Source: Fragilaria crotonensis
Lineage: Eukaryota; Bacillariophyta; Fragilariophyceae; Fragilariales; Fragilariaceae
Assembly: GCA_022925895.1 (NCBI GenBank)
Contig: JAKSYS010000266.1
Span: forward strand, 1 to 64,000
DNA length: 64,000 bases
Direction: 5' to 3'
The notes below the pieces were generated by a model. It was not told the DNA's origin. It saw nothing but the letters and a program-made list of their open reading frames with translations, and ran no database searches. Both the position numbers and the translations under genes were made by a program. This document shows, piece after piece, positions 30,168-53,252 of the stretch; the first letter of the stretch is position 1; each line of letters starts with the position of its first letter.

Positions 30168-30312
30168 TTTTGATTAGTAGATTTTGGTCTGCAAAGGAAG
30201 ACACAAATCAAAGTTGTGAGACAATAGCAAATGCTAGCTACTAGGCGACTTGAAAAGGAAGCGGTGGCATCGCTTGTGGCCACCGGCAGGAGCTATATTT
30301 AAAAGTTGTTTC

Positions 30313-30421
30313 CATGTGTGAACGGTTTACTGGGAATGGAATTTTGCGTCAATACATACGGGTTATGTATAGATTTATGTAAAGGTTTGTGGGATTAGAT
30401 CTTTTCCAAAACTGCGTCGCT
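30313..30421 (+). promoter_or_regulatory. Two-box module, copy 1 (upstream of intact SIT)
   Basis: Box A starts CATGTGTGAACGGTTTACTG at 30313; box B starts TTTGTGGGATTAGATCTTTT at 30386, 73 bp later, and ends in AAAACTGCGTCGC. The same pair occurs near 32454, 33049, 52787 and 53142. It lies about 145-255 bp upstream of the SIT start, in opposite orientation to the gene. Function is unknown; calling it regulatory is inference from position and recurrence. Confidence 0.6.
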
Positions 30422-30459
30422 ATCTTGGGTTGTTACTTGCGTACATGTGTCTTCTGAAT

Positions 30460-30580
30460 TTCCTGAGGAAACTTGTTGGTTATCATTATGGTTTTTACAC
30501 GGAAACTTGTTGGTAAACATTATGGTTTTTACACTGGGATAAACGGGGATAAACGTGGATAAACGTGGATAAACGTCCAT
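30460..30580. repeat. Short tandem repeats upstream of SIT
   Basis: A ~38-bp unit (GAAACTTGTTGGT, then CATTATGGTTTTTACAC) occurs twice, followed by four ten-base units of the type GGATAAACGT ending near 30578. Confidence 0.75.
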
Positions 30581-30973
30581 TCTTCCGGACCTCCCTGGGA
30601 TAGGAGGTCGCACTAGTCTAACGGCTCTCAAGGCCATGTAATACTAAAAGCGGCAGTGATCCAGTTGCCACTCCATGGCGGCGGTCATCCATCATCGCTC
30701 AAGAATGCCATGACAGAGCAAACTTTCTTCCACATGACAGATGACTGAGGGAAAGTAGTGATGGTCACCAGCATGACGAATCGCACAACCTCCAATTCTT
30801 CACGTTGATCGATGAACTACGTTACGGTGGTAAACGAAACGATGTGGACAGATAAACACTTAGACTTCAAAATATTCTAACATCTACAACGTAACGGCTT
30901 TAGCGCTGATTTCACACCACTAATTGCCTCGTAGGACGGTACGACAAGGATTGCGCAACAACAATATCACGTG
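30581..30973. other. Intergenic region between SIT and RING gene
   Basis: No gene seen. It contains the upstream end of the SIT promoter side and the 3' flank of the RING gene. Confidence 0.5.
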
Positions 30974-32371
30974 CTAAACAGGCGAGTCTCGACTTTCGTC
31001 ACACGCCGGAATGCGAGCATCATTTGGAAGCACATCTGTTTTGCACAATGGACAACAGCTTTGCCGTTCTGTCAGCCATGGCTTGATGCATTCCAAATGA
31101 AAACCATGGTTGCACCTTGGTAGAATTCCTATCGCTTCGCCATCCTCGTATTCTTCAAGACAGATGGAGCACATGGAGCAAGTGGTGAACAAAAATGTGT
31201 CAGATGGTTCCTTGACAGTTTGGGAATGAGGCATATCTTCAGCATAATCCTCCTGCTGATCCCGTTCAAGGTTCTCCATGATTTTGTCGTCATCAGTTTT
31301 GTCGGCGTTGACAGGCTTCGATTTTTCGTCGTTAATGGGGGGATCGGCGTCAGCTCCATCGACGTCATTGCTTAGTTCGTGTGCGTCATCTTCTTCCATC
31401 GGTTTTCGTTTGTATACAAGCTCCGGTAACGCTTGAACTTGTTCCTCTGTCAAACAAGTCGCCGTATGCTTGTCGTGATGCATATCCGAACCAGTCGCAG
31501 ACAAGATCGGCGGGGGATGAATGTATTGTAATCCAGTAACTCGGCCGTTGTCGTCGCGCCTTAGTAGGATGCGACCTCCAGACGAGTACCACAAATAACC
31601 AGCTCGGGCGCAAGGAGCAACACCTAAGAAAGCAAAGAGCACACATCTCAAGTAATAAAGAATGGCGCTCGTATCATTCTGATCAGGTTCCGTCGACCCA
31701 CGTCCTGAGTCGTCGTTACTGTGGACAACTTCCAGATTGACTCGCAGATCCCAGGGACGGCTTGCTTCGCCTAGAAACCTCGAGCTCAAACCGGCTTGGT
31801 AGGAATAGTTGCTTACCATCTCAAGGATTCCCACACCAGAATTCCAAGTAGAAGACAAGAACATAGAACTCACTGGATCTTGTGCCTGAAGGGTAGTATT
31901 CGACAATATATAAATCAAGTCGTCGGGCTGCGAGCTGTTGGTGTTATGCACGATCATATAACTGAGGGACGGCGTCAATCGTTTTTGTATCTCGGTAATC
32001 ACAATCGCCTTCAGGTCCACTGGACAACCACCCCGCGCTACCAGAAGAGCTATAGGTCGATCCATTGTCAAGTATCTCGCGTCTAACATAGTCATGTTCT
32101 CAAGTGATGCGGGGAAAACGCAAAGGTTCAGATCATCAGGCGGGAGCATCAACAGGGGTTGAAGCGTCATGTCATGTTGAAGTTTCACATCAAACTCGGC
32201 AACTTGTGAGCGAAAAGTGACGGGATTCCAATCAAGTGGAGTAATCAATACTGTGGGTGGAAGATCCCCTGCGACCGTAGTCGTAAAGTAAAGCAACAAG
32301 TGGCACAATCCTTGCGCAAAGATGGACCTCATCGTCACCGTGAAGCCGCTTGTAAGTGCTCTCTGTGACAT
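30974..32371 (-). CDS. PA-TM-RING type E3 ubiquitin ligase
   Basis: A single-exon 465-residue protein. Residues ~1-35 are a signal peptide (hydrophobic GLCHLLLYFTTTVAG). Residues ~40-215 are lumenal or extracellular. They include a PA-like segment (RPIALLVARGGCPVDLKAI at ~105-123) and several N-glycosylation sequons. A single membrane segment is at ~235-253 (ILYYLRCVLFAFLGVAP). The cytosolic part has an acidic linker and a RING-H2 finger at 401-443: CSICLEEY, CNHGFHLEC, CCPLC, giving the C3H2C3 pattern. This order matches the RNF13/GRAIL-like family, which ubiquitinates partners at endosomal or secretory membranes. The substrate is unknown. ATG at 32371; the next gene is divergent, with a shared ~1.16-kb intergenic region that contains two copies of the two-box module. 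Confidence 0.85.
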   Translation of the reverse strand: MSQRALTSGFTVTMRSIFAQGLCHLLLYFTTTVAGDLPPTVLITPLDWNPVTFRSQVAEFDVKLQHDMTLQPLLMLPPDDLNLCVFPASLENMTMLDARYLTMDRPIALLVARGGCPVDLKAIVITEIQKRLTPSLSYMIVHNTNSSQPDDLIYILSNTTLQAQDPVSSMFLSSTWNSGVGILEMVSNYSYQAGLSSRFLGEASRPWDLRVNLEVVHSNDDSGRGSTEPDQNDTSAILYYLRCVLFAFLGVAPCARAGYLWYSSGGRILLRRDDNGRVTGLQYIHPPPILSATGSDMHHDKHTATCLTEEQVQALPELVYKRKPMEEDDAHELSNDVDGADADPPINDEKSKPVNADKTDDDKIMENLERDQQEDYAEDMPHSQTVKEPSDTFLFTTCSMCSICLEEYEDGEAIGILPRCNHGFHLECIKPWLTERQSCCPLCKTDVLPNDARIPACDESRDSPV

Positions 32372-32453
32372 ACGGAGTACGGTGTGACCAACGGCGGAAG
32401 AAAGAGTTCGTCACAAATCTCGAGTTTAGTCTATAGTCCTATGACTTCGTTTG

Positions 32454-32562
32454 CATGTGTGAATTGTTTTCTGGGACTGAAACTAGTAACAGATGGTACG
32501 GAGACTATAAATTATAAATTGACATGTGTGTTTTGTGGGACTGGAATTAAGTGTGTGGTTTC
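32454..32562 (+). promoter_or_regulatory. Two-box module, copy 2 (RING/ATPase intergenic)
   Basis: Box A CATGTGTGAATTGTTTTCTG at 32454 and box B TTTGTGGGACTGGAATT at 32532, spaced 78 bp. It lies 83 bp upstream of the RING start codon. Box B is less complete at its 3' part than in the SIT copies. Confidence 0.6.
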
Positions 32563-33048
32563 CACATTTCCGCCACACCCTGGTACTGAACCTGCCAGCT
32601 CATTTTAAGGTGGGGTCTCTTAAGTGACAATATCACTCATGGATAAACACAGCTATCTTTCTCCTTAATCAGGTTTATTTCGGGGATATTGTTCATAATG
32701 CCCTCTTGGTCACATGCCTGACAATGCTCGTCGGAGCCAGTATTTTGCGTCATCATGACATCACAATCCTCCTCGTTACCTCTTGCCGTAGTACTACAAG
32801 TACCTGGTACTGTATTATTGTAATACGACAGTACGGTTGTTATAAGCCTGCAGTAATTTGCGAGATACAGGTATGACGGTATGACGCTAACAACGTGTTC
32901 GTGTACTTGAGTGTACCTGGAATTAGACGCAGACTGGTACTGTGCGGTTGATATCGCTTGTGACCAATGCCCCAATGTGCCTGAGTTGCCATACACTACT
33001 GTAGTCTACTACTGCGACTATGCAAACAAGATGTTTCTTCTTCGTTTT

Positions 33049-33182
33049 AATGTGGGAATTGGTTAACGGGATTGATACGTCGATTGAATTGTATGCATGA
33101 ATCCATTCTTTACATATAAATATGCAGTCGAATACATCCCATGTTTCTGGGACTGGATCTTATCCAAAAATGCGTCTACGTC
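33049..33182 (+). promoter_or_regulatory. Two-box module, copy 3 (ATPase side)
   Basis: A diverged box A (AATGTGGGAATTGGTTAACG) at 33049 and a good box B (TTTCTGGGACTGGATCTTAT, then CCAAAAATGCGTC) at 33144, spaced 95 bp. It lies ~350 bp upstream of the ATPase start. A third partial word, TTTCTGGGATTGAAGTTT, is at about 33329. Confidence 0.55.
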
Positions 33183-33534
33183 TTGCTATGAGCTATGAGG
33201 TCGTAAATGCCCGTAAAATGCACATGATTATGTTCCATTTCGTCCACATCATGTGTTCATTGTCTTCGTTCGATATACGTTAACCTCATTTCTTATCGTT
33301 GATGAAGATTGCTAAACTTCTATTTTGAAGACTTTCTGGGATTGAAGTTTAAATGGGTGCTGCGACACATGAACACACATTCATATGCATTCATACGTAC
33401 TGCGATTTGTGCAACTCGCCGACATCATTTTGTTTCTCTTTTGGCGCACGCAAATCAAATCGTCATTTTTCTTCGGCTTCCGTGTTCTGACGTGAGAGTA
33501 TTGGAGTAGTGGTGAGAGGACGTAACAGCATTCG

Positions 33535-36500
33535 ATGAAAGCGGATAACTTGAAGGATGATGCCCATGGGGGCCCCACCACCCCCTCGTGGCACGCCATG
33601 AGTGTGGAGCAGGTGGTTTCTAATCTTGGTCTCAGCACGTCTGTGATAAAGCAGGGTTTGACAAATGCCGAGGCCAAGGAGCGGCTCGAGAAGTTCGGTC
33701 CGAACAAGATGACTGAGGCTGTGAAGAAGACTCTCTGCCAGCGTATCTACGATCAGGTTGCCAACGTGTTGGTGTTCATCCTCGTTGTCGTTGCAATCGT
33801 CTCCGCTGTTCGTGCCGCTACGTCTACTGACTCCAACACAATCGTCACTAACGCGATCCAGGTTGGTCTCATCGTCGGCGTCATTGTCGTCAACACCATC
33901 ATCGGTATTGTCCAGGAAGGTTCTGCTGAGGCTGCTGCTGAGGCTTTGAGGAATATGCTTTCTGCTGACGCCCTCGTTATGCGAGACGGAAAGGAAGTTC
34001 AGATTCCTAGTGTAGACCTAGTTCCTGGCGATCATGTGATTATCGGGACTGGCGACAAGGTCCCGGCTGATCTGCGTATGTTTATGGTCTCCAATGTCGC
34101 ATGCGGAGAAGCTGCGCTGACTGGAGAGTCTGTACCGATTGACAAGACAGTTGAAGCGATAGCGGTTGCGGGCAACCCAGAGTCCACCCCGCTCGGTGAT
34201 CGTCACAATATGGCATTCAGTGCCACGCTTGTCGCCCAAGGTCGGGGTGCGGGTATCGCCATTGCTACGGGTGACGATACCCAAATCGGTACTATCAACG
34301 CCCTCGTCAGTACTGTTGAGAAGAAGAAGACGAACGTTTTGGAGCAGATTGACTACATTTCCAAGTGGTTGGCCTTCTTCATCCTGCTCTCCACTCTTGC
34401 TACCTTCCTTATTGCCTTCTTGAAGACTGGACTTCCCGCTATTGATGCCCTTTCTATTGCACTGGTTTGCGCTGTTGGTATGATCCCTGAAGGCCTCGAG
34501 GCCATTGTCACCATGACGTACGCTTGGGCTGTTTCCAACATGGCAAAGAAAAATGCCATCATTCGGGCTCTTCCAGCGGTTGAGACACTCGGTAGTGTCA
34601 CAGTCATTTGCTCTGATAAGACTGGGACCTTGACCCAAAACAAGATGTCTGTCGTCGCGTTTGTCACCTCCAACGCGCACTATCGTGTTGATGTCAACGC
34701 CAAAGATCGTTCACCGGCCAGTTTCGTTCGCGACGATTCATATTTGTCTGTTCGCGCTGGGCATCAGGCCGATGCTAATCTCCAAGCAGTTATTAAAGAT
34801 GGTCCCAACACAGCCATCCCTCGTCGTGGGAAGCTCGCGGCTTCTAACCACTACGCCATAACTAGTCTTGAGAAGCCACCTCCTTCGATGCACAATCCAG
34901 CCTCGGATGACGGCGTCGACGGCATACCTGTCGCAAATGGAGCTTCTCCAGACCTCCAATTCATCAAGTCAGCTCTTGCTGGCGGAGTACTCTGCTCGCG
35001 ATGTGTCCTAGGTGTTGATGGAACACGCGACGGTGAGATTGGAAACCCCACTGAGATTTCTATTCTACGCGCCGCCTACAATGCGGGTGTTGACGTTGAC
35101 GGTTTGAAGGAGAAGGATCCAATCATCGCCGAGGTTCCGTTTAGTTCGTCATATAAATTTATGTCGACCATACACGAACCCATGTCTGAAATAGACGGCG
35201 AGGGATTAGACGGTCACTACATTGTCCACGTGAAGGGTGCCCCAGATCGGATGCTTGCTCTCTGCAATACGCAGGCCAAAGCTGGAAAGATTGGCGAAAC
35301 TGAGCCAATCAGAAGAAACTATTGGACGGAACAGATTGTCACTTTATCTTCCCATGGCCTTCGTGTTTTGGCTCTCACTCGTGCGGTCGTACGGAAGACG
35401 GACGTCAAGGCTGGGGAACAACTCGGCCCTGAGTTCGTCAACGGACGCCCCGTTGAGCAGTGGCTTACAATGGTTGGTCTTTGCGCCATTCAAGACCCTC
35501 CTCGCCCTGAGTGTATCGACGCCATCGCCACTGCTCACAAAGCTGGAGTTCGGGTTGCTATGATTACCGGTGACCATAAGGATACCGCCATCGCCATCGG
35601 CACTACCCTTGGTTTGGTCGACGAGGAATACCCTAGTGGTATCACTGGTCCTGAGCTCGACGCGATGAGTGAAGATCAATTGAAGGAGGCTGTCATGACG
35701 TATAATGTATTTGCTCGTTCGTCACCTGAAAACAAGCTTCAAATTGTGAAGGCCCTTCAAGCACAACAGCAAGTCGCATCAATGACAGGTGATGGTGTAA
35801 ATGATGCGCCATCCTTGAAGCAGGCCGATATGGGTGTTGCCATGGGATTAGAAGGGACTGACGTAGCTCGCGAGGCGTCGGATATGATCCTTGCCGATGA
35901 CAATTTTGCTACCATCGTTGTTGGTAAGACAGTCTGTATGATACTTGTTGCGTGGCTGTCACTCGCTAAATCCTAACGCGCCATTGTCGTCGTGCAGCGG
36001 TTCGTGAGGGTCGAGTTGTTTGGGATAACCTTCGGAAGGTTCTTCTTGTGAATACTCCCATCAATAACGCGCAGGGAATGTCCGTATTGTTCGGTTTGGC
36101 CTTCGGTCTTAAACAGACTCCCCTTACTTCCATCCAGGTCTTATTCTCCAACTTGATTTGTGCCGTGACCCTCGGATTTGTGTGCGCCATCGGTAAGTTT
36201 CTGATTACAGCTCTATATTGTTATGCGCTTCGTCGGTTACGATTTCATGTGGAACTGATATCAATGCCATCTCCACAGAACCTGCCGAGGATGGTATCAT
36301 GGACATGCCACCCCGAAAAGTCGGAAAACGCTTGATTGGGCGTTTCTTGTTTCTTCGAATCATGCTTGGAACTTTTATTTTGATTATGGTCGTCATTGGA
36401 TCCACATTCTGGGCTAAAGACAGCGGATATGACCTTGAACATCAGAGATCCGTTGCGTTCAATGTTCTTGATTTTGGAGCTATCTCCATTTGTTTGTCAG

Positions 36501-36865
36501 CTCGATTCTCGTACAACAGTTCTATACACCCTCGTCTGTTCAGAGGAAATGCCTTTTGTTGGTGGTCAGTTTTAATTGTTGTTGTATTGCAGATCGCCAT
36601 CACCTACATCCCAGGTCTCAACAGCGTCATTTTCAACATGGCTCCTATGGACGGGACTTTGTGGTTCGTCACTTTCCTTGGCATGCTAATTACTTTCCTT
36701 GTCATGGAGGCGGAAAAGGCTCTTCGTCGTTACCTAAAGGACCATGGATCGGACACTGATGATAGAGTTACATCTCCCATCTTTGATCAAAAGGTCGTCA
36801 GCGACGGCCACGTGAACCTTCCAGACGGTGCCTCGCGGTTGGGGCTTGAGGAGCTCAAGAGTTAA
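33535..36865 (+). CDS. P2-type cation-transporting ATPase
   Basis: Three exons, 33535-35923, 35998-36192 and 36279-36865, with GT-AG introns of 74 and 86 nt. The joins restore [20 protein letters not shown] and [14 protein letters not shown], giving 1,056 residues. An N-terminal cation-ATPase domain starts near residue 20. TGES at 196-199 is the dephosphorylation loop. IPEGLEA at 317-323 lies in TM4. The phosphorylated Asp is D361 in [18 protein letters not shown] at 567 is the nucleotide-binding domain, and TGDGVNDAP is at 751. The C-terminal six-helix region is encoded across exons 2 and 3. Such pumps move Ca2+, Na+ or related cations using ATP, at plasma or internal membranes. The ion is not decided by sequence. 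PEGL is followed by Glu rather than the Pro of SERCA/PMR1 types. Start ATG at 33535. It is divergent from the RING gene. Confidence 0.88.
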
Positions 36866-37970
36866 AGCTTGCAGCCAGGGTGCAGATCCGATTAGTCTAG
36901 TATTTACATGTAGTAGAATGAAGTGAAATGACGTCATGTCGTCCCAATCACTGCGTACTACCTTACCAGTACTGTACTGGATTACAGTATTGTATCTCCT
37001 TTAAGGACATAATTACTTGCTGTATAAAAATGTACGGAGTACTGTACTGGTTTGTGGAGGCGCATCACAAATAGTGACCTCGTGAATGACGTCATATCAC
37101 TGCATTCCAAGGAGATCTTTCGCAGCACTTATGTTTATGTACTTCAGATATGCATATATGAATCATATGTAATATAAGGTATAAGGCCACCGGTGGCACA
37201 CCTTTAATTTTTTTGCCCTATGGCGTAGTGGCAAGAATTTAGCGTCGCTGGTTTTCACGCATTGGATTGAACTCTCGACCCCTTGGCTTGGACTCCTTGA
37301 AAACAGAACATCCAACCGAGATCTCAAATAAATGTATCCGACATAACTTACATTCCTATTTTGAAGCGATGAAGAGCACAACTAGTAAAAACTATAAGCA
37401 TGTAACTATCAAGTATAAGGACCCACAGTTTGGAAATTGGATAATCACATGCGTCATTGTAAAAGGCAAGAATGTCATCGGCGTCCTCAGTACATCAGCA
37501 GTATCTCAATAACACTGTTGTACTTAGTCCATTCTTCTCCAATTAAATGTGTGCGCGTACTGAATGGAAGTTACTTTGAAAAGCATTCCGCAAGATTCTG
37601 GTGAGTTCTGATGTGTGCAACAGTTATAATCCCCCGCTGCCGCAATGGTGATATGCCACGGACAAATGCTTCTTATTCAGCATTGACTCGACGTTTGACG
37701 TGTTCCTCATTACACTTTCATTCTCGCAGTAGACATGCGCAGGATCACCCTTCGACAACGGTAAGCCGAAACACCGCAACTTGAATCGTAGATGTTCAAT
37801 GGCTCAAGGCAGACCTTCAGCGCACTGAATTCTGCTGCTGAAACCTGCAGTATGACACTATCCACAAGAGGGTAGTATTGTACTGTGTGGGTCGAGTTCT
37901 CCTAATCATGAGCACAGCGGCAGCACGTAAAATAGATCTGGGATTTTTAGTCTCTATCGTGTTTTGTCGT
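36866..37970. other. Intergenic region
   Basis: Rich in AGTACTGTACTGG-like words near 36955-37050. Apart from the tRNA-like sequence at about 37214, nothing recognisable is seen. Confidence 0.5.
37214..37283 (+). tRNA. Degenerate tRNA-like sequence (possibly Glu)
   Basis: TGGCGTAGTGG at 37221 fits the pol III A box, and GATTGAACTC at 37264 is a weak B box at the right distance (~43 bp). The stretch TTTTCACGC resembles the TTC anticodon loop of tRNA-Glu. The acceptor arms do not pair and the B box lacks the usual GGTTCGA. I read it as a relic or tRNA-derived sequence, not a working tRNA. Confidence 0.25.
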
Positions 37971-39700
37971 TCACTGACTGTCCACAGTATCAAAGAATGA
38001 TTGAGGAAGACAACCCGCCATCCGGAGTGAGATCGTCGAGTGACTTTGTTTTAGCATGCGAGCGTCAACGTAAGCCATGATCTCCATACAAGTACTCCGT
38101 CCTCTGGGCATTGGCATACGATGTGGGAGTGGCTCCTCAGCATAGCAATAGATTTCTGAAAAGTCTTCTCGCTTTGTGCGAAAGTCCCCGTAATCCGTCC
38201 GTGATAATTCTGGCGACAGGTATAGCGTTAGTTTTGGATGACATTTGAGGAATGCAAAGATACGTAGTAATTGGTCTAGGTGACTCTCATGTGGATTTGC
38301 TCGGTACTGTAACAGCAGCGGTACCTCAGCCAAGCAGTTCATCAACCCTGCCAATCTCAGTTGAGCAGCGGAGAACGTCAATCAACTCCTGGAAATACGT
38401 CGTGCCATTGGAATTATATTCTTCGGTGATATCCAACTCTGGGGAATATGTGATGTTCATCAGTGTGTCACTATTCGTAGTCGGTAATTTGTATCCTTTT
38501 CTCTTGATGGCTTCACTAACATTCTTCACTGCAGCCTTGTCATAGTCTTGGCTTGAAATTGCAAGACTCTTGATCGGTTTCTTCTGTAACTTTGCTCCAA
38601 GGTAATAAACATGCGGCTCTATCTTGTCGTTCTTAAAGCTAGTAGATGTACCTCGTATGATCTTCGCTAGTATTGCTCGTGCGTCGCAAGATAAGGCCAA
38701 AATGTCATCAACAAACATCATAACGTACTCGTAGAACATGTCTCCATCTGACTTCGTAGCTGTACGTCACCATACATATGGGTCAGCCATGGATGATTGA
38801 AAACCCATCAAAGAAAGTTTTCCCAAATTCGGGACCAGCTACCATCCAAAACTTCCCTTTGTTTGATGCTGTCAAGAAAGCCTTCTGAACTTCTGCTCTG
38901 AATACAGCCAAATCGTTCAAAGCAGCCAAAGATCTGAAGTATTCTCATGGAGTTGCGTGAAATCACCATATTGTACGTGACAGAAGCTGGAGCCCCTATC
39001 TTATGACCGTCGGCGCAGTACCTGGCCTTCCGTCAAAAGTTTTCACGAGGAGCTTAATGTCGAACACGCACAAGATGTCCAGTTATCTGGGTAATAACCC
39101 ACCAGAGTGGTGCTTGGATCTCGCTCCATCAAAGTCTTCGAATGCTATGCGGACATTTTGCATCTCGAGTTTGATTGCATCCATCCACAAGGTTTTTCCA
39201 TTTTCCCTGTCGATCTTGATTCCCTCTTTATATTTATGGGATTCTAGGTACCCTACTTGTGTGTATGTGCCCAATACTACTTTGACTTGACCTTTTGTAG
39301 CTAGTATCCGTTTTTGTTTCTGTAGAATATACGAAATCCGCCATGCGAGAGCTGGTCCATCTTCGAGCATGTATGCTTTGCATACACAACAAGCTCCACC
39401 GGATAGGATTCTTTGGGGTCTTTGAGTGAGACCCAATCACTAGATCCATTAGTGCGCCATTCAACCAGCAACTCGCTTAGTGGTCTGCTTTCGTCCACAT
39501 GAGTTTACGTAAGTTAATGGCTGTTGGGAATCGCATCGTGCAAGGTGCAATGGTCCATAACTGATGAAGAACATCATTTGCCGTCTACCCTCTTCATCAA
39601 CCTGCGCCATCAAGTTCTCTGCAATTAGAATTGCCAGTAACTCTTCAATGTGTTCATCCAAGTACTCATTGGGTTGGCACGTGCAATTCCCGCTGGCCGA
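37971..39700 (-). pseudogene. Ty1/copia retrotransposon relic
   Basis: Reverse-strand fragments of one copia polyprotein in several frames. From 5' to 3': ENLMAQVDEEGRRQMMF (about 39620), SSDWVSLKDPKESYPVELVV (about 39440), RT N-terminal part KTLWMDAIKLEMQNVRIAFE (about 39170), RT active site YVMMFVDDILALS (38739 onwards), and the RT/RNase H junction EVPLLLQYRANPHESHL with LLRIFAFLKCHPK (about 38340-38240). The order integrase-linker, RT, RNase H is the copia order and differs from gypsy. Block sequences resemble those I associate with diatom copia elements. No LTRs, primer-binding site or intact frame were found. The region 39700-40264 may hold integrase remains but is too diverged to call. 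Confidence 0.7.
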
Positions 39701-40579
39701 CCATATTTGTCACGAACTCGTCATTTGCGGACAGCAGTTGCATGCACCATTTCACCCTCTGATCTTCGTTACCTTGCCATTTCCGTACCAACGTGTGGGC
39801 CCAAGGTCACTTCTGTGCGAAGGTTCGTTTTTTCGGGAAAAAACCTCCGACAGCGTGCTTGAATAACACATGTTTTCCCATCCCTTTTTCAAAAGTTAAC
39901 TGGTCACGACCCTTCCTAATTATGGAACTTCCCCAAGATCGTCATTCCTTTTGCATTCTAGTACATATTGTTTCACCGATCAAAGCATTTGTTTTGTCTC
40001 CGAATTCTGACTGTGATCTCCTTCCAAGTGGCGAGCGCTCACGCTCTGGGGTGAAGCAATGAGAATGGAGGGTCCACAATCGTCCACGAAGATGGATACG
40101 CACAAATACCGAAGAATGGTATACAATTCTCTCAGCAATGGCGTTCTGCGTTCAAAGTAGGCGGCACCAGCACGTAGTTGCTTGGGTGAGTTGGACAGTG
40201 TTGTGTAGATGCTTTCGTAACAATAAACCTTGTACCTCTTTCCCTTACAATCAATGACCAACAAGAAGAGTACAATTGAAGTAATAAAGGGATTAAAGTA
40301 GAAGTTGTGTTCAGAATACAGGGGAAGTATTCCGAATTAGACTAGCTACATAGTGCCTCATTTAGTAACATGCTGTATGTCGGAGTGCATTTGCACCGGG
40401 CGGTACTGTATTGTAACAGCACGGTGCGTGTACACATACCATGGACAAAACAAAACTAAACAAAACCTACTAATCCTCGGGTTGTCACCACCTTGAGAAA
40501 GTACGGACTCAGGTATTTTATTACTATCTACTAACTCGAACGTGATCCGATCGATGTCGCCAGGACCCATCCAAAAGTA

Positions 40580-40971
40580 AAAAAACTAGAAATCAGTTTA
40601 ACGTGCTACCGCTATGCCCGAGAAGAAGGCATTCGACCCGCACAGATAGGAACTGCACTGGAGTATGCAGTAGCTATCGGCAATTCTCAACCGTACTTAC
40701 TGGTGCACACTGAAGTAATCTCTAATCGACCGCATGCCTGCAGTCACTCACCGCTTGGCGCGTCGATAACTTTCGCAAAAAGATTGGTGCATTAATAGTA
40801 GACAACCCGTTTGTTGTGACTCCCAGAGAATGCTGCTTGTGCTCGGTGACATTGTTGGTATGTAATAATCTTGTACATGCTCTTCGTATAGCGAACGGTT
40901 TCAATAAACTTCTGTAAGTTGCCGCCTGACATGATCACGCCTCGAGGCTCCCGCCCGGGAACGTTCGTCGT
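40580..40971 (-). mobile_element. LINE-B 3' end inserted in LINE-A copy 2
   Basis: A 392-bp insertion flanked by a 16-bp direct repeat, GACCCATCCAAAAGTA, at 40564-40579 and 40972-40987. Its reverse-strand sense contains GMRSIRDYF, matching AGVRSIRSYF at the C-terminus of the LINE-B copy at 42.6 kb. It ends GCGGTAGCACGTTAAAC and then CTAGTTTTTTT, which aligns with the 3' terminus of that copy (GCGGCAGCACGTAAAAT, then GGTTTTTT). Confidence 0.82.
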
Positions 40972-42899
40972 GACCCATCCAAAAGTACTCATTGTACGAT
41001 CAAGCCCCCCGTCTGATGCAATGTATAGTCTCTCGCGTGATCGAAAGGCGCGCCAGACTTGTAAATTGTCCGCTACGTGTTCGACATCCGAAACCATCCT
41101 CCGTTATGTCAGTGGTGGTAATGTTTTCAAGTACACAAATAGCCTGAGATTTGTGCCATTCCCGGGGTCTTGAATAGAAGAAGAAGTTTCCTGGAACATC
41201 GAGCGGATATTGCCTTGGAATTGGTGTTCTGGCGGCTGCTTCCAGACTGGAACGTATCGTAAGTACGAAGATGAGACGTATCTTTTCCAAAGACGGCGTT
41301 GTGAGGATGACGGTGGTGCCTGATGTGGCCATCGCATTCGCTCTGTCCATTCTTGCGGAGGTTAACCATCTAGATACTACCTATGGTTTATGAGATTGGG
41401 TTGAACGGTGTCAATCATGTTACCTGAGGGTTGTATACTTTTTGAACTAGTACATGATGGATGCCCCGCTGCTGGCTAGGTGTGGATCAATTTAAGTGCT
41501 CATGTTGTATAAATGAATTGGTCCATCGGCCCTGCCTTACTTATACTTGGTTGTTCGGTCAGTGTGACCGACAGATTGTGTTTCGACAAACACTCCCGTA
41601 GCGAAAGAAGCCAAGAGGAAGTCAAATACGGAATCGCCTTATTGGGATGTTCAAGCAAATACTTGCCGATTCCAGCTTGTTCTGGTTGGAGATATTGGAG
41701 ATTCAGGAGAAAAAGAAGTTGTCCTGCTGCCGATTTTGAAAAGACAGCATTTCTTAAGAATTTCAAAGATTCAATACCGAGCTCACTATGCAAGTCTTTT
41801 AAGTCCAGACCGCCGAGTTCCGCAGGACCGTATCGTATTGAGGTTGTTGGTAAAGTACTGCACACGTTCATTTTTTTGAGGAGTGACGCGAGTACACGAG
41901 TCTGGATTGTTGAATGTTCTTCTTCAGATGCCGAAAGTGCTGCCAACCCATACCGCACGGTCGGGACATAAATTGATCGATGGAAAATGCGAGCATCAAT
42001 TGCCTTTATACAAAGGGAATGAAGGCGGGCCGCAAACGAGTCGGCTTTAGTTTTGTGTAATTGTATATGATCCGGGAAGCTGCCAGAAGGAGACAATTGA
42101 ACCACGCCAAGAACTTGCGAACATGTTTCCAATTGCATTTGCGGAATTGCTTGTTGTCGCGGAGAGCCAAAAGCATTCTTGCCTATGGTAATATTTGGAT
42201 CTTCGGAACCAATCGGGCGAGGGAATGGCCGACCATTCTTCTTCCACTCCCAGTTAACGATGTAGTACCAGCTGCAGTTCTTACAATTCAGAGAACCGCC
42301 TGAAAGAGAAAGGATGTGCTCCCATGTCTGAGCGATACGCTGCAGGTTCTCGATCATCATGTCCTCCAATGCAAAATCTGAGGAGTAGGGGTCGGTAAAC
42401 CCAGCTGATGTATCCTCAACAACGTAGGCGTCTAGCAGTCTAATGTGTTTCATTCTTGTACCGTTCGGAGACTCGAATGAAATTCGCTCTTGTGTTAAAA
42501 AACCAAACATCTATTTTACGTGCTGCCGCTTCTTCTGGAATCCGGAAGGTTGACTCGCACGACTGAACATACCCCGTGTAGGAGCACGTCCAATATGATT
42601 TCCACCCTGCTACATGTCCGTTCGTGTCGATTGGAAGTACGACCGAATTGATCGCACTCCTGCTAAAGTCTTGTTCTTAACTCTCCGCGTGCTTTCTCTG
42701 AACACTGGGGTATTCACTGTCAACCAATTTTGAATTGCCCATGTCGGTCGTTGCAATTGGTCCTGAAGTTGTCAACTTAGGAGTTCCTGTACTCTGGGCT
42801 TGTAGTGTCGACGATTGTCATATGCCGCTCGCAATTCCCTCTCCACTTCTCGCCTAAGTGCCTGGTTTTGAGTTTCTGTGTCGCGTCCGTGCAATTCTT

Positions 42900-44486
42900 C
42901 GTTTCATAATTTCCACAACTTCATCCAATGTTTCCAAATGTGTGTAATCGACTGGATTTGCCAGCATTGTCCCGTCCGTTTGTCGTCTGTACCCCGTTGC
43001 CGTCGCTCCCTCGCGTAATAATCATCTTGGGTTCTACTCCACTCATTGCCGAATCTCCCGTTAATAATTTGTCTCCACCCGATTGAGTTCTGTTGGGATA
43101 GTATCACGTGGTGCACATCTCTCCGGTATTCGTTTGGGTTCAGGACCATGTCGTCGTCTTCGCTTTGCATCCATGCAGTGCGGATTTTATTAAATGCCGA
43201 AGAGGTCTATATGTGTCCATCTTCGCGTGGAACTCTTCAAGCGATTCTATGAATTTCTTGCGCCACGTTTCTCGGCTGTCAGATCGACATCGAATAATGT
43301 GATCTCTATCTTCTTTGAAGCATTGATGGCATCCTGGGCACTGCCGTTTTCCATTGTCCTGTCGGTTGGCGTGTTTCAAGGTTGGAAGACATTTGTGGAC
43401 CATCTTTGTTAAATGGATTCGCTGTTTGATATCTTTTCTCATCGCTTTACCGTGTGCGCCCCAATTGACCATGTCCATTGTGTTGTCGTCAAAGTTATTC
43501 TTGATCTGAATATATTTCTTTAGAGGACCGCTCGTGGCTCGTCGTCGAATGTCTGTTGCATATTTCGCCGTTTGTGTGCCTTCCGGATATATCAAGAATG
43601 CCCCTGTGTGCTGTGTCATATAGGCGTACGGTCGTGGTTGGCCGAACCTTTTCCTGAAACGTTCGTGCCATGTCGTCTGCATCTACGTTCAACTGGGCTA
43701 AAAGATCTAGAAGGCTGTATGCTCGATTAGCGTCTTGATGTCCTTTCACATATACCAGCCAACTTGACGTTTGGTAATTGGAGCAAAGTGTTTCGGATTT
43801 TGACTAAGAGGTCCCACTCGGGTATCAATGGATTGAGTGGTGCCACGTCGGGTTGCTTGTAGACTCATTGGCTCCTTTCTTGCTGCCGGACTATTGTCAT
43901 CGCCTCTCCCGAAGATTGTGTCGAGCATGCTTTGGCTGTCTGTTCCTATAATGCCTGTCCATGTGCCGTCCATCGCAGTGAATTCCGCCAGGCGAATTAA
44001 GAATCTCAAGATAGAAAGCATTCCGCTACACTCGGCCCTGTACGAATCCATGACATGCCCTCGCGATGGGCCCATGCCTGTTGCTGCATGTTCTCCCTCC
44101 ATGTTGCTCAGCGTCCAGCCAAATGCGCCTGCGTTTCCATACTTTTCTGATCCGTCGCTTCCTGCAACAACGAATGCTTCTTGTAGATCAAGACATATTG
44201 TATATGCGTCCGCAATTAGTTCGGTATGTTGCAAAAGATCAGCTTCCCATGCCTCGAGTGAGTGTACATAATCCGCGAATGTTGCGATTGTCGGTTGCCT
44301 TTGGGTGGGAATCATCGCAGTTTTGTGAGTGATTTTCCACCGGTCGTATCCCTCGTCTTCGGTTTCTACTGGGATAGCACCTGTCGGAAGGTCTTTCCCT
44401 CGAACTGTTCTCGACGTCTGTTGGTAACACTGAGCGTTTTCTCTTCTGCAATATGCAAACGTGCCGCCAGAAATCCGCACGTACAT
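42900..44486 (-). pseudogene. LINE-B RNase H and C-terminal zinc region
   Basis: RNase H blocks: VVAGSDGSEKYGNAGAFGW (Asp), SYRAECSGMLSIL (Glu), IIGTDSQSMLDTI (Asp), and GHQDANRAYSLLDLLAQLNV followed by DADDMA (Asp), the last in a new frame at 43749. A CCHC-like zinc site follows: CPGCHQCFKEDRDHIIRC (about 43300). The end carries HIWKHWMKLWKL, a stop codon, then NEELHGRD. Stops and shifts show decay. The same C-terminal blocks identify the LINE-B fragments at 26.4, 40.6 and 53.8 kb. Confidence 0.75.
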
Positions 44487-44519
44487 CGAGTCAGGTGTGG
44501 CATACGCGAAGTGTTCGAA

Positions 44520-45991: not shown

Positions 45992-46450
45992 ATGTGCGAC
46001 TTGATACCATGGAAATTCGCTCTTGTGTTAGCTTTTCAAGGGTATTGAGAAGTACAACAACAAGCGACAGCCGTGTGAGTCAAGTGTTCATATACCCAGG
46101 ACATCCCGGCAGCATGTTATAATAGAATTGGTTTTTTTTGGGAGGTGCCACTGCCTTGCTTGACCTGTGCCAAAAAGAGCTTCATCCTCTGTCCCAGAAT
46201 ATTGTTGTATCGAAACTCCATGCATCGTCTTCACAGCATACCGCATAAATTTTAGTGCAGATGAATGTGTGCTAATAGCAGTTTCTGGCGTTCCGCAGCG
46301 TCGAGCAGCGAGCATACCGAGGACTATAATTTGATCGTAACAAGCAGATGTGTCGTTATCGAAACGCGCCGTATTCATTTTTAAAATCCGCGAGAGATCT
46401 GATGTAAGCTGTGCCAACATGATTGGATCTAGTACCACGGACATATTGTA

Positions 46451-47480
46451 AGTCGTGACAAATATGCAGCCAGTGACAAACAGACCCAACAACTTGCCAC
46501 TGGAATGGAGAAAAGCATAGAAGACCAATGGACAGAAGTATTCTTGGTCAGAAAGCAAACTAACCAAAAACGCAATTCCTCACTCTCCAAAGTTGAGGAA
46601 AACACCCCACAAGTTAACATCATCTTCAAATTCAATCTGCTGGTTAATGACACTCCAGCATGTACCAGTTTGAAACCAATGGCAAAGAACCAGGCCTCAT
46701 AAAGTCCTCAGGCGGACAAAGTGTTCATCAATTGTCACTGTGGTTGTCATCATTTGACTTGCTCTTTTTCTCCCTGCTAGTAAGGAGTTGGGCGGGGCAT
46801 TCGAGCACAACATGAATCCATGGCATCATATGTGCAGAGACTCTGACAAGCTCCTGCTCAGCAGGCTGATCAGGCCCCGTCTTCCAGTTTGGGTGAAAGC
46901 AGTCTCTCTCACACTGAGCAGCACACCATCCATCCTTGGAGGATATTGATTGCAGGTAAACCAATGATAACAAGAGTGAGACTACAGTATCTGCCTAGTG
47001 GGGTCATCCTGCAAGTCATCCCACAGAACAGGGCTAAAAATGCCTTGCCCATCAGGCTTGGTCCAAATAACTTAAAAAAATTACTGGACAGTATGCAACA
47101 GGATAGCTGAAAGCATTATTTTTATTAAGAAAATTACATGACGTGAGATATTCAAGATATTTGAACTCCGGGCGATGTCTTACTGGATTACTGAATGACC
47201 AAAGGCAATACGTGAAAGGGTCCGTATCATACTGTGATAGACATGAACAAAGAGAGCTTATCTGTTGATTATGATCTGACTATTCAACAAAGCAAGGATG
47301 TGTCACCAGCAATAAATGTAAAGGTTCTTTCTTTATTGAGGATTACTAAGTTATCCGTCTTACTATACTGTTAACAATTCTCACACGAAGCCCTATCAAC
47401 ACTCCTCCACCATCAAGACGTGGCACATCCATATGACAGAGGCACCACGTCTGACAGTCCGAAGCGGATAGGGATCAGGA
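46451..47480. other. No recognisable gene
   Basis: Short frames only, no motif identified. The last ~100 bases before the SIT stop (47380-47486) resemble the 3' flank of the intact SIT gene (shared CTGTTAACAATTCTCACA-type stretch and a GACAGTCCGAAG word). The duplication therefore included the 3' untranslated region. Confidence 0.5.
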
Positions 47481-48510
47481 TGTCGTTTATGCCAACGTCT
47501 CTACATTACCATCACGGGTCCCATCGGAATCAGTGCCTTCCGCACCACCATTCGCAACAGTCAAAGACTTGACGAACTGCGCCACGCTAGGGTCTTTCTC
47601 CAACAATGCTTTCAAACTCTCAGGGGCATGGTCGATAAAGTTCGGGAGCTTGACAATGTGTCCAGGACCATATTCAAGGACCGTGTTGTCATCCTTCATG
47701 TTGAGGCCGGCACGCTCCTCGGCAGTTCCAATGTACTCCTCATCGCGTTTGAAGCCAGCAATGGCCTTGTGAACATCTGCAATAACCCATGCTCCCTGAC
47801 AAAGGCCAGTAGCCTCCAACAAAAGGCAAATGCGAAGCAGAATGTACGTGATGGGGGAGGACATGAATGTGATTGGGAAGCAGGAGGCCACAAGCTGCCA
47901 AGCGATGGAGCCAATAATCGTGGTAATCAAGGCGCCAAGAAGACCGGTATCGAAGAGCTTCTGGACGCCGTCAGAGACACCGAAGACGTTCGTTTCACCC
48001 GGGGCGATCTCAACACTTGTAACTCGGGCCACAAAGAACATGCAAGAAACCACACAGAGTTGTCTCCCAACCATGAATCCGGGCAAGTTGCGCGCGTCGC
48101 CGCTGAAGAGCATGTGAGCAGTCTTCCTGGCAAAAATGTTGGAACCGCGGTCCTTTGCGCAAATCTTGGCAGTCGCAAAGAAGGCAATCTGCATGGCCTC
48201 GAGCATGCCGACAACACACAACAGGAATATGAAGACGAACACAGCAGCAATCGGAGGAATACCGTCCCACACAGTTGTCTTGCCCTCAAACAAGGCAGTG
48301 AAGGTAACTGCCAAAGCGAATCCCAAAACTACGATCGAAAACAAGCATCGCAACCAGAAGAAGATGTTCATGATTGCCGATCGAGGAGGCTCCTTGGATA
48401 CCACAGGCTCTTTGGCCAAGTAGCACACGATCATCTGAAGAACATAGGATGCATGCAACAACCCTGTGAACTCGATGGTCATTGAAACCCAGAAGACAGC
48501 TGACATGAAG

Positions 48511-48523
48511 TACAGCTGGTTTT
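48511..48523. repeat. TA target and left terminal inverted repeat
   Basis: TA followed by CAGCTGGTTTT. The intact SIT has a single TA at this position. Confidence 0.92.
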
Positions 48524-51500
48524 CTGTTCTAAAATCCGGGCGCACGTCCCAGTATTAATTCTACGCTAGACCGATTTCACTGCCAATATGACGTCACGAG
48601 GGCGGGACTTTGTCGTGTTGGAAGCAAGGCTTCCACAATGAGATTTTCAAGCCGTCGTTTGCAACATTTCCATTCTAATCTATAGATTTACCTCCTGCAG
48701 TCACCTTCCTATGTAACTCAGTGAACCTACTGTTGGTGATAAATCTATAGATACAATGGTTGACAAAGGTAAATATGCTATTTTGACTGATGCCGTCATG
48801 CTACTTCGAACAGACATCACGTATGGTCCGAGATTGTCAAATTGCTGGCTTCCTGCATCAACTTGGGCTGAAGCTTTAGGGAGATTTGATGTCAATGCGT
48901 CCCTTGGCGTCATTGATGTAAGAAGGTTCAATACAGGGATGTCCAAGTCGGCTTCTTTCGGAGAATTGATGCACCGATTTGATGGATCAAACACAACAGG
49001 AGTGTTCAGAGTCACATACAAGAACACATTCTATTACTACTTCACAGAGAAATCAAGGCAGATACGGTACCCATGTCCACTTAACAGTGCATGGAACGAA
49101 AAAGTAATGGAAGCAGCCGCAAATGTGCTAGTCATTCCAAGCACAAGATCAAGACCCGCTCTCGACACAATGATAACTACACCTGTCAACACGGAGGCTA
49201 CAACGGGAGGAAGGATCGGAGACATTGTTGAGCAATCACCGAGCAAACGAGCAAGGATAGGAGATACTGGTGCGGCCGCTGTAATGATTGCTGCTGATGC
49301 TTCTAGCTCAAGTTACTGGCCATGTAGCCCAGAGGCATACCGAGTGTTCAAACCACCAAAGAAACATGGGACAACGAATTGCGAGGATGGGAATGATACT
49401 GATTTCGATTCTGAAACTCCAATGGAAGCACTTCAGAGAAGGATTGTACTGCTTCAAAGCGTTCATGAGGAAGAAAATAATTGGAGGAATGTTGTGCAAG
49501 GTAGAGATATCGACAACGTGTGTACCAAAGCTGAGATATGCGCTGTCAGGCAAAGGGCGACGTTTCTTTGTTATGCGTACCGATTGGCTCTTGCAAAAAT
49601 GAATGAATGGACGTGGCAAGACTGTTGCACTGAATCTTGTAAGGTATTGAACACTGTTGGTATGACGCAAGCAACCTTCTATAAAACCATCGCAAATTGG
49701 AACATTGTGTTCCGTAATTTTGAATGCTTCCCAAACCCAAACTTGTCTGTTCAGTGTGGAAACGACCTCTTCCTCGAGTTCTCGAAGTGTTTCCATGCGC
49801 AAAGGAGCAGATTGTTGCATTTGGCGTCGAGAACTTGTCACATCTTTCAATTGAAGCAGTCTATCAATTCGTTCATTCGTCTGTAATCCCAAGGCTGGCT
49901 GCGTTGTGGAAACGTGAATCGGTAGTAGACGAAGATACTGCAGAAACGTCAACATTGAGTACAAGTACTACAGCCATTAATCCTACTAGCAATCCTGTCG
50001 ATGTCGATCAAGATGAGGATGATATTGCGCTATTCCTTCGCGCACATAGACTTAAAAACATGAGCTTCACAACAGCATGGCGCTGGATGCGATTACTCGG
50101 ATTCAAGTATGATACGAGAAGGAAGAGCTTCTACGTCGATGGCCATGAACGTGAAGATGTTGTCGCACATCGAAATGCATTCTGCAAGAACTACCTTACC
50201 GTGCTTGAGCCACGTTGTCGGCGTTGGATTCAGCTTCCACTCAGTGAAGCTGCTACGATCAAGACCTTAGACACAGATTTCGGACATCATTACTATGATA
50301 TTATATCTGATGAGACTCGGGTTGAGTTTCACGTTGACTATTGGAAGAATTGCATATCAAGAATCAAAAGGGAGAAGAGGCAGCGCGAGATGTTGAAGCA
50401 AAAACAAGCATACGAGTGTCATCATCAGTCAGGCCCTTGATGATTATTGGTCAAGATGAGTCTGTCTTCGCGCAGTATCTACTGTCCTCCAAACAATGGG
50501 TTGGGCCAAAGGACAAGTGCCACTTCTGCCCAAGTCGGAGGGCGATGGGTATATGCTTTCTGCGTTCGTGTCACGCGAATTCGGCTTTGGCAGGCAGATG
50601 ACAGAGGATGAGTTACAAAGAGTGAATATGGCAAGGCAAACAGCAGCTCTCGGCGGTGGAAATTACCTCGATACAACAGCTGCGATGGAAATCTTGGGAA
50701 CAACGAGGAAGCCGATTTTGTTGGAATCCCCCTTCGTAAAATACTTGTTCATCGGAATCAATAATCAGGGTTATTGGAATTCATACCACATGAGTCTTCA
50801 GCTTGAGGATGTGGTTGATTGCCTACGAATCCTATATCCAAGCTTCGATTTTGTATTTTTGTTCGATCATTCTCAGGGACACGCTCGCAAACGTGATGGT
50901 GCACTCAGTGCGATCAACATGCAAAAGAACTTTGGAGGATCAAAACAGCAGATGAGAGACACAGTCATAATGTCACAAGAGGGTTATCTGGGCACACACT
51001 CACCAACCCTGGGCATCGGAGACACACAGTCAATGGTATTCAATACTGACGACTGTGGCCCATGGTATTTGACACCAGAGCAACGTGACTTACAACGTCA
51101 TGATCGAATAATGGGAAAAGAAGCAAGCCAATTGAAAACAAAGAAGACCCTTCTTGAAGAGCTCAACGAAAAGGGTGTGACGCTCCAACAAAAACGCGGG
51201 TACACTAAAGCCGAACTTCAGGAATTGGCAAGAAACAATTCAATCGAAACTCACAAAGAAGTCGACAAAATCCTATCTGGATGGGAAGGAAAATCTAAAG
51301 GCATGCTACAAGTTCTGTGGGAAAGAGGACTGATTGATCCAAGTGAGTTAGATAAATACACTGTCGACGGAAAGAAAGACACAATTTCAGGGAAGATTGA
51401 CTTACGGTATTCCCTACGCCATCTCATCGCAGAGTGTGCTGATTTCAAGGATGAGGAAACGGCACTTCAGTACCTTGGATCTCAGCTGGGCATCACGGTA

Positions 51501-52077
51501 CTTCTAACACCAAAGTTCCATGCCGAATTAGCAGGGAAGGCATTGAATTTTGCTGGGGTCACGCAAAGGCTTTCTACCGACGGGTTCCTGTATCTCAAAA
51601 GAGGGACGAGAGAATTTCAAACAACTTGTGAGAGATTCAACGTGTTCAATCAAGGAGTTGACCAAAGAAAGGATGGGAAAGTTTGCTTCGAGAGCACGCG
51701 CATATATTTGTACTTACCATCATCTTTTGAGAGTCAGCAGAGAATGAGGCAGCAAGGTCGTACCCACAACTTCATCGCCACAAGTATAACAGAAGATCAA
51801 GGACTTCTGTACTCCGAAATCCAACGCCTGATGAAATTGTTCAAGTCTCACAGGTGTGCATTGGACTTCGATCGTGGCTTCGTCAACAGTGCACTCAAAG
51901 AAGCAAAGACAAGAAACGAGGAGGACGAGGTGTGATCATCATGTCGACAGAGATGGATTTTTATGGTCGCAGGAGACAGCTGCTACTAAAACTTGATAAA
52001 GGATATGGAAATAATATGCGTGCATGGTACGAATTGTACACAACCTACGTTCGGACGCTTCAACGAAAAACCAGCTG
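48513..52077 (+). mobile_element. TA-flanked Tc1/mariner-like transposon (copy 2) in SIT
   Basis: Comparison with the intact SIT gives the exact ends: GACATGAAG-TA-GTTGTTGATG in the intact copy becomes GACATGAAG-TA, element, TA-GTTGTTGATG. The element is 3,565 bp with 11-bp terminal inverted repeats, CAGCTGGTTTT and AAAACCAGCTG. A duplicated TA is the signature of the IS630/Tc1/mariner superfamily. It encodes a broken DDE transposase related to copy 1 at 24-28 kb. It lies in opposite orientation to SIT. Confidence 0.93.
48756..51935 (+). pseudogene. Transposase of the SIT-inserted transposon, three frameshifts
   Basis: The coding sense starts at ATG 48756 (MVDKGKYAILTDAV) and crosses four frames. 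Blocks: FNTGMSKSASFGELMHRFDG (N-terminal), WRNVVQGRDIDNVC and WQDCCTESCK; then 49724-50340 with FTTAWRWMRLLGFKYD (DNA-binding) and EVEDVV-type spacing; then 50341-50500 with IIGQDESVFAQYL (first Asp); then 50496-51935 with FVFLFDHSQGHARK (second Asp) and KGMLQVLWERGLID. At the expected final Glu (GIEYSWG in copy 1) this copy reads ALNFAGV, so the catalytic Glu seems lost. All three shifts fit single-base losses (near 49730-49880, 50342 and 50510). Inactive as it stands, although the element ends are intact. Confidence 0.8.
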
Positions 52078-52079
52078 TA
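52067..52079. repeat. Right terminal inverted repeat and TA target
   Basis: AAAACCAGCTG followed by TA, complement of the left end. Confidence 0.92.
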
Positions 52080-52786
52080 GTTGTTGATGTAGTCAAGCAT
52101 GCAGAGCGAAGCGTTAACCTGGGAGTTGAGTTGTCCAACCATGCAGGTAAAGAGGATCATTGCCAGACCACTACCCAAGAAGATAGTGATGATCCATTCG
52201 GGAAGTCCCCAGAGTGCCGCACCCTTGGTGGGACCGCCAGCCATGTTGACAGCAAACACAGTCAAAACAACCAGGAATTGACGACCGAGAAGGTAGCGGT
52301 CAAGGTTGTCGCCAGTGAAGCAGAACTTGCAGATGGCGTGAGTTTTCTTGTGCGAGACCTTGTAGAGTTCTGGGTTGACCGGCGCGAGACCAACGAGAGA
52401 AGCTTGACCTCCTTCGACCATGGTGAGCCAAATGATAGCACCCCAAATGACAACAAAGGCGAGGATAGGACTGACTTCCGAAGAGATCTTGGTCTGGCCG
52501 GTGAAGATCAGGCCCATGACCATGGCAATCGAGAAGATGAGAAGTCCAATGGAGTAAATGCTCTTGAACAAGGTGACATTGTCAGAAATATCTGGAAGGG
52601 GGGTTTCGATTGCCATTTTTGGTTAGTAGATTCTGCTCTGCAATGGAAGACACCAGGTCGAAATTGTGAGACGAGAATTTGGTGTGGTGGTCCCTCGCAA
52701 AAAGGTGAACATTTGGCTATCATACGGCAAAAGAAAACGTGACGTCGCTTGCAAGCAACGGCAGAAGATGTATTCGATGTTGTTTG

Positions 52787-52892
52787 CATGTGTGAATTGC
52801 TTCCTGGGATTGGAATTTTGATTCGATCATACAGATATATGAAAAGATATTGCTCACGTTTGTGGGACTGGATCCTTTCCTAAAATGCGTTG
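52787..52892 (+). promoter_or_regulatory. Two-box module, copy 4 (upstream of disrupted SIT)
   Basis: Box A CATGTGTGAATTGCTTCCTG at 52787 and box B TTTGTGGGACTGGATCCTTT at 52859, spaced 72 bp, ending in AAAATGCGTTGCC. It is the positional equivalent of copy 1 at the intact SIT. Confidence 0.65.
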
Positions 52893-53141
52893 CCACCTTG
52901 AGTTTAAGCTTGCTTGTATGTGTCCATTGTTTACTCTGGAACATCTGGTTGACCTTGGTTTTTATTCTGAGATAAAGATAGCTAAAAGTCAGTGTACCTT
53001 GCCTTGGTGGGATTAACCTTGCGCCAACGGCTCTGGGTACAGATGGTAATTGAATTCGGTGATATCGCTTGTGACCAACTGCGGATCAAAAATGTCGTCA
53101 CAAAACCAAGTTACATAATGTTTTTTGTTCGATATTGTTTT

Positions 53142-53252
53142 CATGTGTGAGTTGTTTAATGGGATTGAATCTATATACTTTTAACTTACATATTATAATT
53201 TTCGACGTGGAATGTGCGTTTTGTGGGACTGGCTCTTTTCCATAATGGACGG
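53142..53252 (+). promoter_or_regulatory. Two-box module, copy 5
   Basis: Box A CATGTGTGAGTTGTTTAATG at 53142 and box B TTTGTGGGACTGGCTCTTTT at 53220, spaced 78 bp. It lies ~355 bp beyond copy 4, so the disrupted SIT has two modules upstream and the intact one has one. Confidence 0.65.

Follow-up and report, generated by a model that had tools for sequence, protein, structure and literature searches.

A candidate promoter module shared by silicon transporter and RING finger genes in the diatom Fragilaria crotonensis

The 64,000-nucleotide stretch of Fragilaria crotonensis DNA analysed here (the window; positions 1 to 64,000 of contig JAKSYS010000266.1, assembly GCA_022925895.1, forward strand, named C188 below) carries two silicon transporter genes, SIT-a and SIT-b, a RING finger gene, RING-a, and a P-type cation ATPase gene (Table 1). 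A sequence-only reading of the window had reported that two short boxes, A and B, recur as a pair five times in the intergenic DNA near these genes, and had proposed either a shared regulatory element or a tiny mobile repeat. All five pairs were recovered at the reported positions on the plus strand, with A-to-B start distances of 73, 78, 95, 72 and 78 bp for copies 1 to 5, as reported, and with distances from the start of box A to the annotated ATG of 146, 83, 678, 171 and 526 bp, roughly the 80–640 bp given before. With up to three mismatches allowed, box A matched the window 13 times (1.55 expected) and box B 7 times (0.72 expected), five of the matches in each case being the reported copies; one further box B match is the core within box A of copy 2. 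None of 100 shuffles reached the observed box A or box B totals, and the five box pairs are beyond chance within the window.

Table 1 Genes, boxes and cores of the window (Z, A and B are listed by module; leave-one-out scores for box Z are followed by the number of background positions reaching the score)
Feature	Position	Strand	Evidence or remark
SIT-a, intact single-domain silicon transporter	28644..30167	-	PF03842, 645 bits
Box Z, module 1 (SIT-a)	30266..30292	+	leave-one-out 25.4; 0/109,648
Box A, module 1 (SIT-a)	30306..30345	+	pattern and leave-one-out matches
Box B, module 1 (SIT-a)	30384..30411	+	pattern matches
RING-a	30974..32371	-	N-terminal hydrophobic stretch; strongly hydrophobic stretch near 234-255; C-terminal RING finger 400-444
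Box Z, module 2 (RING-a), adjoins annotated RING ATG	32374..32400	+	leave-one-out 18.3; 0/109,648
Box A, module 2 (RING-a)	32447..32486	+	pattern and leave-one-out matches
Box B core, module 2 (RING-a)	32530..32547	+	core and its TTTCC split by 10-base insert; missed by longer box B patterns
Box Z, module 3 (between RING-a and ATPase)	32950..32976	+	leave-one-out 17.0; 0/109,648
Box A, module 3, most diverged	33042..33081	+	leave-one-out 32.4 vs background maximum 20.2
Box B, module 3	33142..33169	+	pattern matches
Isolated extra core TTTCTGGGATTGAA, distal to module 3	33332..33350	+	sequence
P-type cation ATPase	33535..35976	+	best but sub-threshold fit to PMR1-type Ca2+ model; further gene part downstream
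SIT-b 5' part	51939..52616	-	~3.4 kb from 3' part (47487-48545)
Box Z, module 4 (SIT-b)	52741..52767	+	leave-one-out 25.4; 0/109,648
Box A, module 4 (SIT-b)	52780..52819	+	pattern matches
Box B, module 4 (SIT-b)	52857..52884	+	pattern matches
Box Z, module 5 (SIT-b distal)	53061..53087	+	leave-one-out 22.8; 0/109,648
Box A, module 5 (SIT-b distal)	53135..53174	+	pattern matches
Box B, module 5 (SIT-b distal)	53218..53245	+	pattern matches

The whole genome assembly (62,107,879 bases in 881 contigs) was then scanned. Longer box A patterns were required because the box A 16-mer at up to two mismatches was swamped by chance matches (99 against 95 in the control, no enrichment), and only the longer patterns separated signal from noise. 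Box A extended through the TGGGATTG core gave seven matches at up to three mismatches and none in the control, all of them on C188, C521 and C637. A more degenerate pattern, which also recovered the box A of module 3 missed by the extended one, gave 13 matches and again none in the control. Ten of these 13 have at most two mismatches and the other three, which stand outside the count that follows, have three. All ten close matches lie upstream of single-domain SIT genes or of RING genes, 72–678 bp from the annotated ATGs: the five window copies, a pair on C521 and single matches on C637, C703 and C349. The sequence-only reading had allowed for a random scatter relative to genes; close copies of box A were instead confined to DNA upstream of SIT and RING genes.

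Box B proved more widespread. Its extended pattern gave eight matches, all of them module boxes, and none in the control, while the 16-mer at up to two mismatches gave 64 against 13, of which seven belong to modules of the window, C521 or C637; box A was absent at three one-mismatch 16-mer sites outside the modules (C235, C337 and C669). A longer loose box B pattern matched 70 times at up to three mismatches (control 9), mostly outside the modules, and nine times at up to two, these being seven module boxes and one string shared by C872 and C873. The core TTTNNTGGGAYTGRA matched 39 times against three in the control, with nine matches in SIT or RING promoters, two of which represent one distal core, present in C703 and again in its near-identical C349 copy, and 30 elsewhere. 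Ten of these 30 were examined and held one core each without an A or B box, and a wider regulon defined by this core was rejected on that ground. Among the 20 unexamined outside core matches are ten identical occurrences of the string TTTGATGGGATTGGA, perhaps a coding repeat. A search of the genome with the DNA of module 4 returned only itself, C637 and part of C521, a weak negative since the other four window copies were also missed. In all, the genome holds eight modules and one near-identical split copy.

A third box, named Z, comes before box A in all eight modules, making the A/B pair part of a larger colinear Z-A-B module. The order and orientation of the three boxes are kept in every one, and the module is antisense to the SIT or RING gene downstream throughout. 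Mean pairwise identity is 0.80 for A, 0.83 for B and 0.69 for Z, against 0.61, 0.59 and 0.56 after shuffling, and the spacers and flank stand at shuffle level. Leave-one-out scoring is a fairer test than this contrast between boxes and spacers, and was run against a hard background, its loci having been partly chosen through box A or B 16-mer matches (109,232 positions for box A and 109,648 for box Z). All nine copies of box A, five in the window and four elsewhere, scored 32–64, with a background maximum of 20. For the first 18 bp of box B, four of eight copies scored above all background and the other four were equalled or exceeded by one or two positions; box B alone is less specific than box A. 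Box Z alone, at up to three mismatches, matched the genome three times, always in modules, against two control matches.

The module is present at all near-full-length single-domain SIT loci found, the box A copies of C637, C703 and C349 adjoining silicon transporter genes as do those of SIT-a and SIT-b. Distal cores like the isolated TTTCTGGGATTGAA of the window also occur upstream of the C637 and C703 SITs. The SIT-a and SIT-b coding sequences are near-identical (synonymous divergence, dS, 0.04–0.07), while their upstream DNA is strongly diverged beyond about 60 bp; of 54 box positions their modules share 45, which is no closer than SIT-b and C637 with 47. Copies 1 and 4 are more diverged than the SIT coding sequences that they adjoin. 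Gene conversion, an idea also raised for Synedra SITs (PMC6114903), may have evened out the coding parts while the promoters kept older differences. The earlier argument that the SIT duplication cannot account for copies 2, 3 and 5 was borne out. The C703 and C349 copies are 97.7% identical over 533 bp, with a coding dS of 0.02–0.03, and are perhaps alleles. In C349, an insertion of about 8.8 kb (~35180–43985), flanked by a 17-bp duplication GTATACTGTTTGGATTT, separates box A from box B and offers a natural test of whether B is needed in place. A third SIT (C637:18802–20312) is seemingly interrupted, with a stop and two overlapping matches that differ in frame, and could be a pseudogene or an assembly error. 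Between the two parts of SIT-b (window 47487–52616) lie open reading frames (ORFs) of 376, 238 and 479 aa; the last (50496–51935) has no Pfam match and is by eye similar to a 733-aa ORF at 24285–26486, likewise without one. Fused multi-domain SIT genes were seen at C97:29752–33738 (three SIT matches) and C771:21682–24327 (two), each in one open frame, and recall the multi-SIT genes described in parts of the Synedra report (PMC6114903).

The C521 copies of box A lie upstream of a second RING gene, RING-b, about 64% identical to that of the window and with a second box A 165 bp from its ATG. Both proteins have a hydrophobic N-terminus, one strongly hydrophobic middle stretch and a C-terminal RING finger, an architecture that would fit a membrane E3 ligase; RING-a presumably has an ectodomain. 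Two of the three full-length RING paralogues carry the module. Relatives of the SIT and RING genes were also sought in IMG/VR contigs, and none were confirmed there.

On this evidence, Z-A-B is probably a promoter-proximal cis-regulatory module, transferred whole between SIT and RING genes and maintained by selection. The location of all ten close box A matches supports well the shared regulatory element proposed by the sequence-only reading, and the modules stay within a limited distance of start codons, are enriched at SIT and RING genes relative to the genome and are conserved beyond their surroundings, this last being partly circular. That the shared block is long and keeps its order and orientation speaks for a common origin, in which a single regulatory module would have been copied between the two families, and not for short sites brought together by chance. 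The earlier reading had also tied the boxes to the ATPase gene. Its SIT and RING link is supported by location; the ATPase link is unproven, as copy 3 could just as well be a distal module of the RING gene. About 365 bp separate the end of box B of copy 3 from the ATPase ATG, and the extra core at 33337 is nearer still, so that a bidirectional element between RING-a and the ATPase, controlling both, can be envisaged, but we consider it rather doubtful. SIT-b has a second module 526 bp from its ATG, where the next large ORF shares the SIT strand, and together with the second box A of RING-b this indicates that a distal copy needs no second gene; RING-a alone can explain copy 3.

Several other origins for the boxes were weighed. 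They might be remnants, without special function, of upstream DNA that came along in gene or segmental duplications, as the 60 bp or so that the SIT paralogues have in common just upstream of the ATG and their near-identical coding sequences would allow; SIT and RING are unrelated protein families, yet the module is common to both, and the roughly 80% identity of boxes A and B amid shuffle-level spacers and flank, like the fixed order and orientation of Z, A and B, is hard to reconcile with plain promoter homology, which is therefore unlikely. A conserved non-coding or antisense RNA transcribed upstream of SIT and RING from the strand that bears the boxes would account for the fixed strand of the boxes relative to the genes. 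The consensus fold of the eight modules has four pairs, no compensatory changes and an energy of -1.49 kcal/mol, the spacers vary freely in sequence and length, and Rfam gave no match in the window at the gathering threshold; a structured RNA or Rfam family was rejected on the trivial fold, the lack of compensatory change and the lack of an Rfam match, and an RNA of any such kind is very unlikely.

The tiny mobile repeat suggested by the earlier reading, similar to a miniature inverted-repeat transposable element (MITE) or a short interspersed nuclear element (SINE) and near these genes by happenstance, would explain why there are several copies, all oriented alike, and why SIT-b, possibly RING-a too, has a second module and RING-b a second box A. 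Yet 62 Mb of genome hold only the eight modules and one split copy, without close copies elsewhere, and since the ten close box A matches are all at SIT or RING promoters, this is not a dispersed repeat. Terminal inverted repeats were sought in the five window modules; three contain a short imperfect inverted repeat, none of which pairs the module ends. The extended box A and B patterns and the degenerate box A pattern, run over the genome, revealed no dispersed copies independent of gene identity of the kind expected of a MITE, and a tRNA-derived SINE was rejected because ARAGORN found no tRNA genes in the window and Rfam no match. The reversed core may bear a faint likeness to the RNA polymerase III B box. 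By copy number, location and lack of ends a mobile repeat was rejected, its probability being close to negligible.

Some observations weigh against a regulatory module common to SIT and RING genes. The third RING paralogue (C327) has no box A or B above noise in 1,041 bp upstream, nor do the fused SITs of C97 (1,500 bp upstream) and C771 (731 bp upstream), so some family members do without the module; partial SIT matches on C76 and C169 likewise give only noise-level box scores. Of the 64 box B 16-mer matches, 57 are outside the modules and mostly uninspected, and B-like sites elsewhere are possible. A-to-B spacing ranges from 72 to 95 bp, so the two boxes show no rigid helical phasing. The contrast between boxes and spacers is partly circular because the boxes were picked for being conserved, binding-site statistics are thin with eight separate modules, and the core found no matching transcription factor.

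Promoter modules common to several genes are familiar; Z-A-B itself appears to be undescribed. No SIT promoter element was described in the literature searched, a scope with most subscription journals outside it and in which absence is unproven. The closest counterparts are the promoters of TpSIT1 and of a Cyclotella cryptica SIT, from centric diatoms, which are silicon-starvation-inducible (PMC5561644). Like the module these lie at a silicon transporter gene, and for them a response to silicon limitation has been demonstrated; in the main text of that report the terms ‘motif’, ‘cis’ and ‘transcription factor’ occur 0 times. Short cis elements common to co-regulated diatom genes are also represented by the CO2/cAMP-responsive elements (CCREs) of diatom carbon genes, mentioned in part of PMC5067629. 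The Z-A-B module differs from these in its longer boxes (18–40 bp), its core and its gene set. CCREs have a TGACGT-type sequence. A tight tie between a SIT and few partner genes, as proposed for the module, is seen for TpSIT1, co-expressed with kinase 14322 and protein 9619 (PMC5067629; PMC5501833); its partners are a kinase and an unknown protein rather than a RING ligase, and the passages on this group report no shared promoter motif.

The identity of the genes suggests that the module may respond to silicon. In Phaeodactylum, the PtSIT2 genes are up under silicon starvation, as is a RING finger ligase, and vesicle-like PtSIT2-GFP is said to increase with MG-132, from data not displayed in the paper (PMC2758714); these observations make a joint SIT/RING switch plausible. 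Under such a switch, the RING ligase would limit SIT at the membrane. We tentatively extend this to a dedicated silicon-response element, possible though short of probable, whose regulon would be very small, comprising only silicon transporters and a single family of membrane RING ligases. One switch, passed on whole between unrelated genes, would then govern both a transporter and its limiting enzyme. With its compact form and its presence at every near-full-length single-domain SIT locus found, the element provides a bait for the missing transcription factor, and it narrows the search for co-regulated genes to a few candidates. The association of SIT and RING genes suggests that silicon uptake carries its own brake in the form of the ligase.

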